DNA of 64,000 nt, taken from Bdellovibrionales bacterium GWA1_52_35 (GTDB taxonomy: Bacteria; Bdellovibrionota; UBA1018). Below are positions 19,722 to 27,839 of the stretch, piece by piece. The DNA lies in assembly GCA_001769805.1 (NCBI GenBank), contig MEPO01000026.1:1-64000 (forward strand), in the 5' to 3' direction. The first letter of the stretch is position 1, and every line of letters begins with the position of its first letter. The notes below the pieces were generated by a model. The model was not told where the DNA came from. It did no database searches and saw only the letters and a list, made by a program, of their open reading frames with translations. A program made the translations under genes and the position numbers.

Positions 19722-20909
19722 ATGAAGAAATCTCCACTGTTCGTTATCTTTACGACTGTACTGATCGATTTGGTCGGCTTCGGGATGATCATCCCGCTTG
19801 TTTCGATTTACGGACGGCACTACGGAGCGAGTGGCTGGGAGCTTGCCCTGCTGGGCGCGATTTTTTCACTGATGCAATTTCTCTTTGCACCGTTCTGGGG
19901 GAACCTTTCAGATCGTTTCGGAAGGCGTCCGATTCTCTTGGTTTCTCTTGCCGGCTCCACGGTCTCGTATTTTACGTTCGGTCTGGCTCCAAGCTTCGCG
20001 TGGCTTTTTGCGTCTCGCGCCTTCGCGGGCGGTTTTGCCGCGAATATCTCGGCCGCTCAGGCTTATATTGCCGACATCACGACACCGCAGGATCGCGCGA
20101 AAGGCATGGGCCTGATCGGCGCGGCTTTTGGAATCGGATTCACGCTCGGACCGCCGCTTGGGGGAATCGCCTCACATTGGCTGGGGCTTGGGGCACCAGG
20201 GATCATTGCGGGAACTCTTTGCGGTCTGAATCTGATTCTTGCTTACTTCCGCCTGCCGGAATCTCTTTCGCTGGAAATCCGGCAGTCCATTACTGGGAGA
20301 CGTTCGCTTTGTCCAGTAGCGCCGCGGACAATGAAGGCGGCGTTTGCGCATCCAGTGCTCTGGCTTCTGCTGTTGGTCTATGCGCTCTGGACTTTTGCTT
20401 TCTCTACGGTAGAGCAGACGATCTCGCTGCTCTTGCAGGCGAAGTTCGTGCTGTCGACGGAAGAGGCGGGATTGAAAACCGGGCTGGTGCTGATGTGGGC
20501 GGGAATACTGAGCGCGGTGATCCAGGGTGGACTGATCCGCAAGCTGGTCCCGGAGTACGGCGAGCGGAAGTTATTACTCGCAGGTTTGCTGATGAACGCG
20601 CTGGGGTTTGGGCTTTTCCCGTTCGGGCCGACGTACGGAAGTTATTACGCGCTGATCATTCTGGTCTCGGGTGGCTCGGCACTTTTAAGCCCGAGTTTAA
20701 GCGCGATGATTTCGAGGAGTGCCGAGGCGTCAGAGCAGGGCGCGGTGATGGGCCTGTCTCAAGGACTGGCCAGCCTTGCGCGCGCGCTGGGCCCGTTTTG
20801 CGGGCTGCTCGTTTTTGCCGTGGATATGCGTTACCCGTTTTTGATTGCGGGGGTGACCTGCTTGGCGCTGCTGTTTTGGAGCATGAACCGAATCACGCTT
20901 AGATCTTAA
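19722..20909 (+). CDS. MFS transporter (TetA-like)
   Basis: 12-TM pattern; GNLSDRFGRRPILL motif A. Confidence 0.88.
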   Translation: MKKSPLFVIFTTVLIDLVGFGMIIPLVSIYGRHYGASGWELALLGAIFSLMQFLFAPFWGNLSDRFGRRPILLVSLAGSTVSYFTFGLAPSFAWLFASRAFAGGFAANISAAQAYIADITTPQDRAKGMGLIGAAFGIGFTLGPPLGGIASHWLGLGAPGIIAGTLCGLNLILAYFRLPESLSLEIRQSITGRRSLCPVAPRTMKAAFAHPVLWLLLLVYALWTFAFSTVEQTISLLLQAKFVLSTEEAGLKTGLVLMWAGILSAVIQGGLIRKLVPEYGERKLLLAGLLMNALGFGLFPFGPTYGSYYALIILVSGGSALLSPSLSAMISRSAEASEQGAVMGLSQGLASLARALGPFCGLLVFAVDMRYPFLIAGVTCLALLFWSMNRITLRS

Positions 20910-23896
20910 TAAGCATATAGTTGTGGCGTGAAGGCACTGGTCCAGATCGCAACCCCCTTCATGATTCGAACCTCATCAAAAGAACTGCCTGCAGGGAACA
21001 TAGCTCCAGACATTGCCTGATTGGAGCCGATGTAGAGGGAATTCGAAGAGTCAAGAAAACCATTACAATCTGCCTGCGTCGCAACAATTTGCCCGTTTGT
21101 AAAGAGTCTGCAGGTCGTACCGGATTTCGTAACTGCCACGTGCTGCCAGTTAATTGTGTAGGCATTCGCAACAGCAGTAGCATCACCCAAACCTTCAGAA
21201 AGGCTATCGGTTCCGTTTGTAAAGCCCAGTCCCTGCTGCCAATCGATCATCAAAACCCATCCTGTTGCGGGAGTTGCCGGTGGGCCCGCTGCGCCCGGAG
21301 CGTAATTGCCGATCAAAGTCACAGGAGAACCCACAGTCGGTGCGGTGGCTAATTTGACCCACATTTCGACCGTAAAATCTTGAGAACCGAAATTCCAGTC
21401 CAGACTGTACGGAAACGTGACATAGCCATAGTCAGTAGCGCTACTGCCAAAATAGCCTTGATTGACATTCACCGGCGTCGAATCACCTGAGCCCATATTT
21501 GCAGCCATGTCAGGCATCAGCAATCCCTTTGCATCCCTGAAGCTATCCACTCCACCTATTCCATTCACGTGAACCAGCAGTGCTTGACGGGACTCCAAAT
21601 AAAACCCGGTTTGCCAGGAAGGGACACTCATTTCAGGCGGTGCACTGATCGCCAGCTGGTGGGTCGTAGAAAAGTTCCGAATTGTTTGTGCGCGATAATA
21701 AAACCAGGTACTTGTGCTCGAATCCGCAAGACTCAGTTCGAAACCCGCAAAAACACTGCTACCATTAGCCGTGATTCCTGCTGTTGCACAAGTCGGGTCG
21801 TTCGGTGGATAAACCCGACCATAGCTTCCGCCACCCTCGGTAACTGCAATCGGAATAGAAGGATGCGCAAAGCTGCTCAGGGGATTTAAAGCGCTGTCCA
21901 CAAGTTCAACGATGAACTTCGAACACTCCCCCTGATAAAGGGTGGTGGCGGCGTCTGCCAGTGAAATTTTTAGTTGGGCTCTGTACGGGAGATAATAGGT
22001 GCTCACTGCTGCCGAAACACTCGAATCCGTAGTACCAACGCCAATATTTACGCTACCTGCAACTGAATCACCTGCTGGTCTAAAGAATATATTTTGAGTT
22101 GAGATGGAATCCGGCACATTGACCTGAATCACCCCATTTGATCCCGCTTCGCAATCAGCAGCGGTCTGGTAAAAGGCTCCGGAAATTCCGGTACTCGAGA
22201 GGTTTATTGTCTGGGCAGCTGAAAAGGTCGATTCGAAAGTCAGAGGAACGCTACAGGGATCTGAAATAACTGAAGGTGGCGGACCAATAAAAGCTAAACT
22301 GCCGGTAACTGAATTGGACCCAACAACATTGACCTTGAACTGGAATTCCCGATTTTGAAAATCCACCAACTTGGCAGTCCACTCTTCTGTTGTCCCATTT
22401 GCTACGACAGGTGCGGCGAACATGGCTCCGCTACAGCTCCCAGGGATGCTGCAATCACCATCAATTGTAGAAGTGCCATTGGTAATCTGCCAAGTATAAG
22501 GTGCGACCCCGCCCCACCCGTATACATAGAAATTTTGATTCGAAGGCACATTCACTACCGTCCCCGGAGTGGGCATTGGCCCCGATCCGGTGGAAACTTG
22601 TCCTTCGAGCGGCTCGGGCATTGCTGATAGACTGACTGAGACACCTTCCACCGTAACTTCGCTCGTTATCGAAGGCGCAGTCATCGTGTCGGATTCGATA
22701 TTCATCAGGATAAATGGCTTATTGTCCGTTGGCATTCCATTCGTGAACTTCATGACATGCCGGGAACTCAAAGTATGAAAGGAGGCATGATAAAGACCAA
22801 TATCGGAATTTCCGAGCGGAGCCCAATTAACCGAGCTATCCGACAGGAAAGCGTAAGCCGATCCACAAACGTTAGCCGTACCAACCGTGTTTGTACAATC
22901 AGCTCTCCCTCCTGAGTACCGTAAGCTCACTCGCATATAAGGCAGCTGTTCATAACCCGTGGCATCGAAGGCAAGCCGGATGGCCGCCCTCCCTTGCTTA
23001 GGTGTTTCTGCAGAAGGAGCCTGATATTTGTGAATGACCGAATTTGCGGAGGTACCGACAGCTCCCGTCAACAGGTCTGCAAAGTTCAATGCAAGCACCT
23101 TTTCAGAGTCACTAAAGTCTACGGGAACGCCCGCAGAAAGATCAACTGGCACTCCGACGAAAGACCCATCACCCTCTGGCCCGGTGGGATAAACAGCAGA
23201 AGGCGACGAAGTATTCATTGGTGATGGATACCGCCCCTTCCTCGCAATCACGAGCGGTACGGAATCCTGCTTGTCACCGCATTGAAAAAGTTTCCTGTCA
23301 CTTACGAAAGCGGCATCCAGATAAATATCTTTATCTTCGAACAAGTCGACCACCTGTTCTGCCAGAAGGTACGGATCACCCAAGCTGTCTTTATAGGAAT
23401 CATTGTTCAGAACATCTTCCATGTTGGGGCAGCCAAGCCCAGCTATCGCCGAAAAACCAAAGATCCGGACATGCCTAGCCGGACCCGCAGCGATCAGCAT
23501 TTCCATGCTGCCGCCGTTTACCGCCGAAACCAGTCCTGCAAATTTCCCTACGGCTTCATTCGGGCACTTCTCCACCCGCGGATCATCCGCAATATCCACT
23601 GCACTCACCGCCATCCCAAGACAGGCGATTCCTGCCATGCTGGTAGGAATGGGGGCATAAGAACTGTAGGCCGAAAACCCGGGTACCGGGAGTTGTGCGA
23701 CCCAGTCGGATTTTGAACTCGCATTGATTTCTTGAATCGTGGTATTCCGCGGAATTTCCACACGAATGGACCGCTTTTCCTGAGGAGCCAGGGAACAGCC
23801 GGTCATCACGACTCCCACCGTGAGTATTCCCGCCGCTGCCGCCAACCAGGTCAGTAGTTGTGGCGCCAGATGCTCACCACGTTTGATCCTGCTCAT
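20906..23896 (-). CDS. Large lipoprotein with C-terminal LamG/concanavalin-like domain
   Basis: GILTVGVVMTGCSLAPQ lipobox; C-terminal SQDFTVEMWVKL...NWQHVAVTKSGTTCRLFTNGQ...LYIGSNQ...FDEVRIMKGVAIW. Confidence 0.8.
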   Translation of the reverse strand: MSRIKRGEHLAPQLLTWLAAAAGILTVGVVMTGCSLAPQEKRSIRVEIPRNTTIQEINASSKSDWVAQLPVPGFSAYSSYAPIPTSMAGIACLGMAVSAVDIADDPRVEKCPNEAVGKFAGLVSAVNGGSMEMLIAAGPARHVRIFGFSAIAGLGCPNMEDVLNNDSYKDSLGDPYLLAEQVVDLFEDKDIYLDAAFVSDRKLFQCGDKQDSVPLVIARKGRYPSPMNTSSPSAVYPTGPEGDGSFVGVPVDLSAGVPVDFSDSEKVLALNFADLLTGAVGTSANSVIHKYQAPSAETPKQGRAAIRLAFDATGYEQLPYMRVSLRYSGGRADCTNTVGTANVCGSAYAFLSDSSVNWAPLGNSDIGLYHASFHTLSSRHVMKFTNGMPTDNKPFILMNIESDTMTAPSITSEVTVEGVSVSLSAMPEPLEGQVSTGSGPMPTPGTVVNVPSNQNFYVYGWGGVAPYTWQITNGTSTIDGDCSIPGSCSGAMFAAPVVANGTTEEWTAKLVDFQNREFQFKVNVVGSNSVTGSLAFIGPPPSVISDPCSVPLTFESTFSAAQTINLSSTGISGAFYQTAADCEAGSNGVIQVNVPDSISTQNIFFRPAGDSVAGSVNIGVGTTDSSVSAAVSTYYLPYRAQLKISLADAATTLYQGECSKFIVELVDSALNPLSSFAHPSIPIAVTEGGGSYGRVYPPNDPTCATAGITANGSSVFAGFELSLADSSTSTWFYYRAQTIRNFSTTHQLAISAPPEMSVPSWQTGFYLESRQALLVHVNGIGGVDSFRDAKGLLMPDMAANMGSGDSTPVNVNQGYFGSSATDYGYVTFPYSLDWNFGSQDFTVEMWVKLATAPTVGSPVTLIGNYAPGAAGPPATPATGWVLMIDWQQGLGFTNGTDSLSEGLGDATAVANAYTINWQHVAVTKSGTTCRLFTNGQIVATQADCNGFLDSSNSLYIGSNQAMSGAMFPAGSSFDEVRIMKGVAIWTSAFTPQLYAY

Positions 23897-23921
23897 CAGA
23901 AACTCCTTTGTATTCCCACTT

Positions 23922-24974
23922 TCAAGGCCTGATATTGACTATGACCTTCAAACGCCTGAGGACCGGCCCCGTATTGACCGGCTGCTGAGTGAAAGTCTGG
24001 GTTACACCAAACGTTCCTGCCACTCCCACGTCCCCCATCGAAACTGTCATCGAGGGTGGAGCCACTACGGCCGTGTTCATCACCGCTTTCATCACTTCCG
24101 GGGAAGGCGCCTGGCTTCCTGAGGTCGCCGAAGTATCAATCACAACGGCTTTGGAAAACGTGTTGTCGATCACCTTGATATCTTTTGTAATACTCGCCAG
24201 CTGCTTCGTATCGAGGGTCACCGACTTCATCGGAGCTAGATCACCCTGCTTGGTCGTGAGCTGCGTGCCGGCAGTCAGGCTGACAACCTTTTCCTCTTTC
24301 ATCGAACTGGGAGCACGACCGTCAACTTTGGGTAATTCTTTTTTGACGTCGACCTGTCCCTGAATCACTGTAATTTCTGTTTTGGCCAAATCCGGTTGCG
24401 CGGGTGCCGCACCGGGTTTTCCATTTACGGAGCCCGCACTCGCGGCGGCGGCAGCCTGCACAGGGAGCGGCTTGTCCGGATTCAGAATGACATGACGGAC
24501 TTCATCCATATTCTTGATTTCTGATTTCACGATGAATTCTGTACCGCGAACACCCATGGTCGCGGCCGGTGTCTTCACGCGGAAACGGCCTTTGCCATCA
24601 ATTTTCTGTGTCACCGCTGCGCGCATCGTGCCGTACATCATACTCACATCCGCTTCGCGATCCGATCCACCATTCAACTTGAACCCTTCCACTTTGAAAA
24701 GAGCGGAGGGACCCAGATCCACAATGCTTTTGTCTTTCATTAAAATTTTGACCCGGCCATTGCTCGGCGTATTCACGACATCGCCCGCACTGATCGCATC
24801 GCCGGGTGCTGCCGGCTTTAATTTCCCTGCGACCCTACCGTCTGGACGGATGAATACGCTCCCGTCCACACTGACGACCTCGCCGGCGATTTCGCCGGCT
24901 GAGATGGCGGGCAGAAAAAAACAAAAACCCAATAAAATAGAACAATACACTCCTACGTACCGCATAAAATCCAT
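23922..24974 (-). CDS. FecR-domain protein, exported
   Basis: Signal peptide; GEVVSVDGSVFIRPDG...GDVVNTPSNGRVKILMKDKSIVDLGPSALFKVEGF...FRVKTPAATMGVRGTEFIV. Confidence 0.8.
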   Translation of the reverse strand: MDFMRYVGVYCSILLGFCFFLPAISAGEIAGEVVSVDGSVFIRPDGRVAGKLKPAAPGDAISAGDVVNTPSNGRVKILMKDKSIVDLGPSALFKVEGFKLNGGSDREADVSMMYGTMRAAVTQKIDGKGRFRVKTPAATMGVRGTEFIVKSEIKNMDEVRHVILNPDKPLPVQAAAAASAGSVNGKPGAAPAQPDLAKTEITVIQGQVDVKKELPKVDGRAPSSMKEEKVVSLTAGTQLTTKQGDLAPMKSVTLDTKQLASITKDIKVIDNTFSKAVVIDTSATSGSQAPSPEVMKAVMNTAVVAPPSMTVSMGDVGVAGTFGVTQTFTQQPVNTGPVLRRLKVIVNIRP

Positions 24975-24988
24975 GATAGGCTTATCGA

Positions 24989-26587
24989 ATGATCCCAACA
25001 ATCTGTGTCCGGAATGACACCCGCTCAGGTCCCAATAAATTCAGGTTCGCCATAATTTTTTTATTAATGCTCTGCATTAAAACCGACCCAGTTTATGCCG
25101 TGGAGTCGCATCCCGGGATCAACCTTGAATCCATGTATTCCGAGGCCGTGATCGCCTACAACAAAAAACAATCCGATCAGGCCTTGAAGCTTTTGAATGA
25201 GCTACTTGTGGCCAGCCCCAATCACGTCGAAGGTCTTGAGTTGATGGCGCTCACTCTTAAGGAGAAAGGCGACCCCACCAAAGCCATGGAAGTTTACGCC
25301 CGCCTGATCAAGGCCAAACCTGAAGCTGCGCGCGGCCCCTACTACTTCGAAATGGGCATGATGTATCACAAGGCAAACAAACCCGATCTTGCGAAGCCAT
25401 ATTTCGAAAAGGCCCTGAAGCTTGGTTTCAATCGCAGCACGACCCAGTTGTTCCTCGGCTTGATCAGCTTCACCGCAGGCAGACTCAATGAATCTGAAAA
25501 AAGCTTCACTGAAGTAAAATCCGGCGGGGCGCCCGAAATGAAGCTCCTCGCCCATTATTATCTGGGACTCATCCACTTCAAAAACGGCTACGGTGCCGGT
25601 GGCACCTACGAACTGACCGCAGCCCGGAATCTCGCGCGGGACCTTCCCAACAGCAAAATGACAACAGACATCGCCGCCGGTGCGGACAAGATTCTGGCCC
25701 CCTTCAATAAAGATCAATGGTTCGGCAATATGACTTTCCTGACCGAATACGATTCCAACATTGCGACGCTCCCGACCAGCGCTGCCGCAGCGAATGCCTC
25801 AAAGAAATCAACTCCGAATCTCATGCTGAACGGCGGCGCAGGATATATGACGAGCCCCACAAACACAGTCCAGTGGGTCGGAAATTACCGTTTCTCCGTT
25901 AACAAGACGACCAATGTGCAAACCAAGTCTTACGAGTACTTCAATCATACCCCTGCGCTATTTATGAATATCAGTCCACTTTCGCGCACGACAGGTGGCT
26001 TGAAGGTGGAAGGTAATCTCGCATTCAACAATATGCCCAAAGATCCGGAGCAGCCGAACGGGGCCTATATTTTCCGTAAATACAGCACCTACTTTGAAGG
26101 CAGCCCGTACTTCCGCTATGAGCTCGCCAAAGGCGTGCAAAGCGAACTGGAAGCGGGTTATCGCAAGATCACCAATGATTCAGACCCGACCCAATCGGGA
26201 AATCTGCTCCGCGTGCGGGGTTCAACGCATGCAACAACATCATCGCAATTGCTGAACCCAGGCGCGAGCGTCAGCTACGAGAAGCTGAATACGCTCGGGA
26301 TCGATACTCGCTCCAATTCCCTGGATTTCGGCCTTTTCAATACAATGAAATTGTCCGGCTCCGATATTCTGAACTTGTCCGTCGATTACACCCTCAGCAG
26401 ATATCCTCTGAGTACAACTTCCCGCTCAGATAAAACCACCGTTGCAAGATTGAGTGCCGTTCACACGCTGAGCCCGGCGTTTTCCCTTCTGGGAGAGGTC
26501 AATTACACCGCCAACAGCTCGAGTCTTGCCGATGCCTACTCCTATAATCGCCTCGCGGTCGGCTTCGGAATGGGCTGGACTCTCTAA
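24989..26587 (+). CDS. TPR protein with C-terminal outer-membrane beta-barrel
   Basis: N-terminal TPRs (EAVIAYNKKQSDQALKLLNELLVASPNHVEGLELMALTLKEKGDP), then barrel-like strands from TFLTEYDSNIATL to GFGMGWTL. Confidence 0.75.
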   Translation: MIPTICVRNDTRSGPNKFRFAIIFLLMLCIKTDPVYAVESHPGINLESMYSEAVIAYNKKQSDQALKLLNELLVASPNHVEGLELMALTLKEKGDPTKAMEVYARLIKAKPEAARGPYYFEMGMMYHKANKPDLAKPYFEKALKLGFNRSTTQLFLGLISFTAGRLNESEKSFTEVKSGGAPEMKLLAHYYLGLIHFKNGYGAGGTYELTAARNLARDLPNSKMTTDIAAGADKILAPFNKDQWFGNMTFLTEYDSNIATLPTSAAAANASKKSTPNLMLNGGAGYMTSPTNTVQWVGNYRFSVNKTTNVQTKSYEYFNHTPALFMNISPLSRTTGGLKVEGNLAFNNMPKDPEQPNGAYIFRKYSTYFEGSPYFRYELAKGVQSELEAGYRKITNDSDPTQSGNLLRVRGSTHATTSSQLLNPGASVSYEKLNTLGIDTRSNSLDFGLFNTMKLSGSDILNLSVDYTLSRYPLSTTSRSDKTTVARLSAVHTLSPAFSLLGEVNYTANSSSLADAYSYNRLAVGFGMGWTL

Positions 26588-26757: not shown

Positions 26758-26784
26758 TAAAGTCGGCAAATTTTTCACCGATAG
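26758..26784 (+). promoter_or_regulatory. Sigma28 (FliA)-type promoter
   Basis: TAAA-N15-ACCGATAG versus consensus TAAA-N15-GCCGATAA, upstream of flagellin. Confidence 0.75.
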
Positions 26785-26855
26785 GTTCAGTGAGAGTTCG
26801 GCAGGGATTGCCGAGTGATCACAGAGTAAGAACAAAAACATCAAGGAGGAATCAA

Positions 26856-26876
26856 ATGACCTATCGAGGAGGATAG
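26856..26876 (+). CDS. 6-codon leader ORF (MTYRGG*) in the flagellin 5' UTR
   Basis: AAGGAGG at 26843-26849, then ATG ACC TAT CGA GGA GGA TAG; the flagellin SD lies inside the ORF. Confidence 0.4.
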   Translation: MTYRGG

Positions 26877-26880
26877 TCAC

Positions 26881-27714
26881 ATGAGTTTACGTATTGCCAC
26901 TAACGTCCAAGCCCTTGCCGCTCAGAGAAATCTGAATATCAATAACGAAAAATCCGCTGGATCTCTGGAGCGTTTGTCTTCCGGTTCCAGAATCAATAAA
27001 GCCGGTGACGATGCCGCCGGTCTCGCCATCAGTGAAAAATTAAAAGCCAATATCCGCAGCATGAAACAGGCAACCCGCAATGCCAACGACGGGATCAGCC
27101 TGGTGCAAACTGCTGAAGGCGCCATGAACGAAATCGGCAGCATCCTGGTCCGTTTGCGCGAACTGTCAATCCAATCCGCTTCCGATACGATCGGACAGAC
27201 CGAACGCGGATTCGTCGACAAGGAAGTTCAGGCCCTGAAATCTGAAATCAACCGGATTTCGAACGTGACCGAATTCAACGGCACCAAACTCTTAAATGGC
27301 ACTGCAGCCCCGCTTGACATCCAGGTCGGTCTGACCAACGATCCGGAACTCGATCGCTTTGTTTTCGATACCCCGACCCGCGTGACGACGCTCGATGCTC
27401 TCGGCATCAGCGATGTCTCAACTACCGACAAGGTTGCAGCACAGAACAATCTCGTTGCCGTCGACAATGCCATCGTCAGGCTGAACGAAAACCGTTCCAG
27501 CCTGGGCGCTTTGCAGAACCGGTTGATGTCCACGATCAATAACATGAGCATCTACCGCGAGAACCTTGAAGGCGCCAATAGCCGTATCCGCGATACGGAC
27601 ATGGCCGAAGAGACCAGCGAACTGGTCAAGAACAACATTCTCACACAGGCCAATATCTCAGTCTTGGGTCAGGCGAACCAGATGCCTAACCTCGTGATGA
27701 AACTCCTCGGATAA
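26881..27714 (+). CDS. fliC: Flagellin
   Basis: MSLRIATNVQALAAQRNL...LSSGSRINKAGDDAAGLAISEKL; C-terminal ANISVLGQANQMPNLVMKLLG. Confidence 0.97.
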   Translation: MSLRIATNVQALAAQRNLNINNEKSAGSLERLSSGSRINKAGDDAAGLAISEKLKANIRSMKQATRNANDGISLVQTAEGAMNEIGSILVRLRELSIQSASDTIGQTERGFVDKEVQALKSEINRISNVTEFNGTKLLNGTAAPLDIQVGLTNDPELDRFVFDTPTRVTTLDALGISDVSTTDKVAAQNNLVAVDNAIVRLNENRSSLGALQNRLMSTINNMSIYRENLEGANSRIRDTDMAEETSELVKNNILTQANISVLGQANQMPNLVMKLLG

Positions 27715-27763: not shown

Positions 27764-27810
27764 AGCGGGAAATCCCCCAAGGAAGATTTGGGATTTCCCG
27801 CTTGTTTTTT
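27764..27810 (+). terminator. Rho-independent terminator of flagellin
   Basis: 13-bp perfect stem AGCGGGAAATCCC/GGGATTTCCCGCT, 13-nt loop, then TGTTTTTT. Confidence 0.9.
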
Positions 27811-27839
27811 AAGCTCCCGCCCCTTACTTTCCCGCCGAC

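Follow-up and report, generated by a model that had tools for sequence, protein, structure and literature searches.

Very probably, many flagellin genes of the Bdellovibrionota use a real and apparently undescribed translation switch: a mini-ORF of three to seven codons that holds the Shine-Dalgarno (SD) sequence of the flagellin gene and stops just before the flagellin start codon. The same arrangement, with start, frame and stop kept, stands before many flagellins of the phylum, which argues that it is not a coincidence. We describe it here at one locus of Bdellovibrionales bacterium GWA1_52_35, within a window that comprises the whole stretch of DNA analysed (64,000 nucleotides), and in its relatives.

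In the window, all features of the locus lie on the forward (+) strand. A sigma-28 (FliA)-like promoter, TAAAG-N15-CCGATAG (26758-26784), was recognised by sequence and by comparison with the B. bacteriovorus FliA consensus, TTAAG-N16-CCGATA (PMC3627812), and its start site is a predicted one. It is followed by a hairpin, GUUCGGCA-GGGAU-UGCCGAGU (26796-26816), which carries GGA in its loop and is a candidate CsrA site (BS1) by virtue of GGA-loop enrichment and of covariation in the tandem clade described below. Downstream, SD1 (AAGGAGGA, 26843-26850), the spacer ATCAA, the codons ATG ACC TAT CGA GGA GGA TAG, the spacer TCAC and the flagellin ATG (26881) follow in that order. SD1 is the predicted ribosome site of the mini-ORF and, with CAAGGAGGA, also a candidate CsrA ANGGA site. 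The six-codon mini-ORF, ATGACCTATCGAGGAGGATAG (26856-26876), encodes MTYRGG* from its own SD, and within its last codons lies SD2 of the flagellin gene (GAGGAGGA, 26866-26873), whose GGAGG core ends 8 nt 5' of the flagellin ATG; such embedding is in frame in nearly all of the leaders compared below. The flagellin gene (26881-27714) encodes 277 aa and matches Flagellin_N at 145 bits (PF00669, E 2.8e-42). Beyond its stop codon stands an intrinsic-terminator-like hairpin with a T run (27765-27811), recognised by inspection of the sequence. Given the sigma-28-like promoter and this hairpin, the flagellin transcript is probably monocistronic, with a leader of ~90 nt.

The original prediction had given this mini-ORF and its upstream SD exactly, except for one A dropped between SD1 and ATG. 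It was also right that the Gly codons form the flagellin SD and that the flagellin ATG comes 4 nt after the TAG, TCAC separating positions 26876 and 26881. The leader of the window folds no more stably than its shuffles (z 0.11 and -0.79), and a structured leader in the window itself was rejected on that ground. Its SD2 region, which in an iraD-type system would be sequestered in a structure opened by upstream translation, does fold locally (centroid -9.1 kcal/mol), at z 0.11 relative to shuffles. Directly upstream of the flagellin gene, positions 20906-26587 encode a 996-aa predicted lipoprotein, a secreted 359-aa FecR-type-like protein and a 532-aa protein, seemingly TPR plus an outer-membrane barrel; judged by sequence, these neighbours appear to have nothing to do with motility.

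We evaluated the arrangement against chance in flagellin leaders taken from 58 relatives, 147 of which were left after 90% redundancy removal. An SD-preceded ATG opens a short ORF that ends beside the flagellin ATG in 55 of the 147, compared with 3.1 ± 1.7 (maximum 9 in 300) when the last 45 nt were shuffled with all SD tetramers held fixed. Genome-wide, the pattern GGAGGN{4,10}ATGN{3,12}GGAGGNTRR, which does not require frame, matched 62 sites in 58 genomes versus 7 for the reversed pattern (sums of the table). Of thirty pattern loci retrieved, 25 lie before flagellin; the 29 sites that these 25 contain are in-frame ORFs without exception, whereas the five non-flagellin loci yielded an in-frame ORF in only one case, L210. 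Leaders of flagellins from other phyla had the arrangement in 0 of 40 cases. A chance origin is thus rejected on three counts, by the shuffles that keep the SDs, by the reversed pattern and by the outgroup leaders. L210 itself (G041:C13:284549-284581, minus strand) encodes MNLGEGG* with both SD1 and SD2, before a gene whose N-terminus resembles FlgF/FlgG-type rod/hook proteins; it is the sole non-flagellin flagellar case seen and is possibly due to chance.

Conservation extends to the start, the frame and the stop of the mini-ORF but not to its peptide, the hallmark of a cis requirement for translation. Without imposing any ORF condition, we collected the 45 leaders in which SD1 is followed by an ATG and then by SD2. 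In 43 of them the mini-ORF ATG and SD2 share a frame, and in 40 a stop codon comes directly after GGAGGN (TAG 21, TAA 18, TGA 1). Among 77 intact mini-ORFs, the stop is TAG in 36, TAA in 35 and TGA in 6, its identity having changed at least 19 times on the flagellin tree. Mini-ORF length has changed 12 times on that tree, in whole codons, a comparison that is in part built in, since an ORF with a broken frame would not have been called; independent evidence for frame comes from the no-condition test (43/45). The gap between the stop and the flagellin ATG takes values of 1, 2, 3, 4, 5 and 7 nt with 29 changes on the tree, and is 1-4 nt in 75 of the 77 intact cases, though related sequences are not independent and such counts are not probabilities. 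Between GGAGG and the mini-ORF ATG the spacing is mostly 8-9 nt in relatives and 6 nt in the window.

The encoded peptides include MNGG, MQGG, MTGG, MKGG, MLKGG, MILTGG, MVFNGG, MTYRGG and MDG, and the residues not forced by GGAGGN vary freely over sizes of 3-7 codons. Gly-Gly-stop closes 55 of the 77 mini-ORFs because GGAGGN encodes Gly-Gly in the frame used, and a conserved peptide was rejected since residues outside the SD2-encoded ones vary. Three further leaders (L164, L182 and L047) keep frame and stop with ATA or ATT as the start (ATA AAG GGA AGG TAG, ATT AAA CAA GGA GGA TAG and ATA ACA CTA TCC TAG, respectively). By their sequence, these would be either decaying mini-ORFs or weak start codons in use.

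We next placed the mini-ORFs on a FastTree of 203 flagellins, the basis of all clade counts given here. One paralog clade, made up mostly of second or later tandem genes, has the mini-ORF in 67 of 74 genes, and the clade of first tandem genes has it in 1 of 48, a case that looks spurious. In the clade of the window gene it precedes 15 of 25. The ATG and stop, whose conservation in relatives had been set as a check on the original prediction, are thus kept at the level of clade and phylum, while 10 of the 25 window-clade genes, the nearest ortholog L039 included, are without an ATG-started mini-ORF. The tree requires no fewer than 17 changes in mini-ORF presence, so that both gain and loss have occurred. 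A second geometry, a minority in relatives, occurs in the window clade and elsewhere: the stop lies 12-19 nt upstream, just before SD2, and the peptides are MNTT*, MKQL*, MTNY*, MKPK* and MTLNNF*.

Across the phylum, the pattern was found in 161 of 369 genomes, compared with ~38 matches of the reversed pattern in 34 genomes (our own count). Of 30 loci returned by this search, 21 precede flagellin, as do all of 20 further sites that were chosen for recurring peptides. By our tally, the mini-ORF is confirmed before flagellins in 16 Bdellovibrionota families (f1-f7, f9, f11-f14, f16, f18-f20). Named homologs assign the window itself to this phylum. The leaders of first tandem flagellins (L001 and L007-L035, MGLRINTNVP class) have no mini-ORF. 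Almost all of them close with the inverted repeat ACCUUC-AUGGAGG-AAGGU, by which the flagellin SD comes to lie in a GGA loop; often they also have an upstream GGCCAAGGAUAGGCC-type hairpin. Read from the letters, this would be a second, direct CsrA-like layout within the same genomes.

We then compared the leaders with known CsrA features, which are GGA in a loop, ANGGA, multiple sites and the SELEX consensus RUACARGGAUGU (PMC7652899). GGA-loop hairpins occur in 47 of 72 mini-ORF leaders versus 4.3 ± 1.9 in dinucleotide shuffles. They are also common in leaders without a mini-ORF (22/38 class-1 leaders versus 2.2 shuffled), showing that hairpin and mini-ORF are separable, and were found in 22/75 other leaders (versus 3.1 shuffled) and 11/36 distant mini-ORF leaders (versus 1.1 shuffled). 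In 28 leaders of the tandem clade, two successive GGA-loop hairpins stand at about -70 and -50. Their helices have a covariation score of 0.709, compared with 0.243 ± 0.025 for shuffled and at most 0.19 for slid alignments, a large margin, though one somewhat favoured by predicting the structure on the same alignment; compensatory changes occur in 10 of 11 pairs. The window leader has one such hairpin (26796-26816), not two. A CANGGAG context surrounds 68% of 117 SD1s versus 13% of 39 SDs of other genes, and ANGGA is present in 79% of SD1 and 72% of SD2 sequences. Both SDs of the window contain GGA (SD1 as AAGGA, SD2 as GAGGA). A known RNA family was rejected, as neither the window leader nor those of five relatives gave a relevant Rfam match at gathering score.

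Five flagellin genes are clear in the window's own genome, although the end of a contig truncates one of the five; a sixth, weaker match is probably FlgL-like. A second mini-ORF precedes the flagellin on contig C12, with the order AAGGAGGATAGCGCTT-ATG AAC GGA GGC TAA-T-ATG and the peptide MNGG*. In this genome csrA (G000:C21:154513-154668) adjoins fliW (154005-154358). FliW was found here and in 17 of 17 relatives tested, and CsrA is present in 229 of 235 good genomes of the phylum. Co-occurrence of CsrA with the mini-ORF was rejected as evidence, since a protein that is almost universal in the phylum makes it uninformative. The original prediction had overlooked both the csrA/fliW pair and the GGA-loop hairpin at 26796-26816; together, the CsrA-like hairpin and the gene pair suggest how the coupling would be regulated.

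One relative, G190, has six flagellins arranged as two close pairs and two singles. The flagellins of the laboratory strain B. bacteriovorus HD100 are Bd0604/0606, Bd0408/0410, Bd3052 and Bd3342 (PMC2791853), and from the match to this published layout we infer that G190 is HD100; a comparison with the PDB recognised no Bdellovibrio flagellin. Its fliC4-position gene is preceded by MKHGG*, and its fliC5- and fliC6-position genes by MKNKY* and MVMTK* in the second geometry; inspection of the leaders at the fliC1, fliC2 and fliC3 positions revealed no mini-ORF. In B. bacteriovorus, FliC5, FliC1 and FliC6 are abundant, and FliC2, FliC3 and FliC4 scarce. Mini-ORFs thus stand before flagellins of both high and low abundance, so they are not simply high-output devices, and these abundances do not support a simple role in high expression. 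If G190 is HD100, the attack-phase small RNAs APsRNA3 and APsRNA4 (PMC3627812) directly flank the flagellin gene at 562142, at about 561854-561981 (before) and 562984-563081 (after), and APsRNA3 may then be a flagellin leader instead of a free small RNA.

The reading that we consider probable is that of a translated mini-cistron that acts in cis and hands ribosomes to flagellin by termination-reinitiation, with CsrA and FliW probably gating the first SD. Transcription from the sigma-28-like promoter would yield a 5' leader of ~90 nt with a GGA-loop hairpin, a strong SD1 and a 3-7 codon ORF holding SD2. After entry at SD1 and passage through the mini-ORF, ribosomes would stop, in most cases 1-4 nt 5' of the flagellin AUG, where SD2 under the terminating ribosome would position the 30S subunit for reinitiation; flagellin output would thereby follow entry at SD1, and the peptide itself would be of no importance. 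CsrA bound to the upstream hairpin or hairpins and to ANGGA over SD1 would probably close the only efficient entry, and FliW, free when unassembled flagellin is scarce, would release CsrA and open it. From the architecture, conservation and covariation of these leaders and the presence of csrA and fliW, we infer mini-ORF translation, reinitiation, CsrA binding and relief by FliW. Each step has a known precedent: iraD/ORF27 for an action of CsrA that depends on a coupled ORF, hag for control of flagellin by CsrA/FliW, and bicistronic designs for reinitiation from an SD2 placed within the first ORF.

A constitutive ribosome-loading device, in effect a natural bicistronic design, could also make flagellin initiation strong and independent of structure, with CsrA acting elsewhere or not at all. 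The architecture equals that of the engineered designs, whose short first cistron carries SD2 at its 3' end (PMC5995908), and hairpins also occur without mini-ORFs. We nevertheless consider this unlikely, as SD1 has the CsrA-like CANGGA context, covarying GGA-loop hairpins are strongly over-represented in mini-ORF leaders, and the mini-ORF is not confined to abundant flagellins. It is quite improbable that the ORF is an untranslated by-product of two GGA/SD motifs selected as CsrA or ribosome sites. Such a reading would draw on the recurrence of GGAGG repeats in these leaders and on the window ORF itself, which can form a small hairpin whose loop holds GAGGAG; against it, ATG, frame and stop are kept while stop codons are exchanged and lengths change by whole codons, GGA sites include neither ATGs nor stops, and the SD-preserving null gives 3.1 where 55 were observed.

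The original prediction of coupled control left two outcomes, masking of the flagellin ribosome-binding site (RBS) or reloading at it. Coupling itself is strongly supported by a start, frame and stop kept while the peptide changes; of the two outcomes, reloading would be the better fit to the arrangement. An inhibitory mini-ORF, whose initiating or stop-stalled ribosomes would cover the flagellin RBS and lower output, seems very improbable to us. The mini-ORF does overlap the flagellin RBS, which rules out simultaneous occupancy of the two sites by ribosomes, but a stop usually 1-4 nt before the AUG and an SD2 at normal spacing (8 nt in the window) suit reinitiation better, and there is no conserved arrest peptide. 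Hardly credible is a micropeptide acting in trans or as an arrest peptide: the frequent Gly-Gly-stop (55/77) is forced by GGAGGN, the other residues vary freely over 3-7 codons, and variants such as MNGV, MNGD, MDG, MKQL and MNTT exist.

The termination-reinitiation reading may, as a tentative extension, describe a module of the whole phylum, in which CsrA and FliW would sense unassembled flagellin and close the 3-7 codon mini-cistron. Several paralogs would then be switched by coupled reinitiation, and the first, filament-starting paralog by a direct SD hairpin. If true, the order of the flagellins along the segmented filament, and their amounts, could be determined in this way. The arrangement would explain, in a directly testable manner, how the amount of each flagellin is set in predatory bacteria that have several, and supplies many natural variants of a minimal reinitiation module, from 3 codons upward.

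A literature search, outside which most subscription papers fell, returned no description of an upstream ORF of Bdellovibrio flagellin or of such a combined leader. The parts are known separately, from iraD/ORF27, from hag with CsrA and FliW, and from engineered bicistronic designs, and we did not find their combination described. In E. coli, repression of iraD by CsrA depends entirely on translational coupling to an upstream ORF, ORF27 (PMC5574718). As in the flagellin leaders, that ORF has GGA over its SD and a stop at the start of the main gene, and the leader has several GGA sites; ORF27 is 27 codons long and a hairpin sequesters the iraD SD (PMC5574718), whereas the mini-ORF described here has 3-7 codons, contains SD2, acts on flagellin and is found again and again across a phylum. 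The B. subtilis hag system (PMC7652899) shares the flagellin mRNA, the presence of csrA and fliW, and at least two leader GGA sites, one of them over the SD. Unlike hag, for which we found no upstream mini-ORF described, the first GGA/SD here is that of the mini-ORF, and the CsrA sites are candidates. Engineered bicistronic designs of the Mutalik type (BCD; PMC5995908) likewise consist of SD1, a short first cistron, an embedded SD2 and a stop beside the second start, but they are man-made, with a leader of ~17 residues, while the flagellin mini-ORFs are natural, have 3-7 residues and are linked to candidate CsrA hairpins. These leaders appear to be a natural equivalent of engineered bicistronic elements, one that is conserved across a phylum, before a single gene family, and that comes together with CsrA-like sites.
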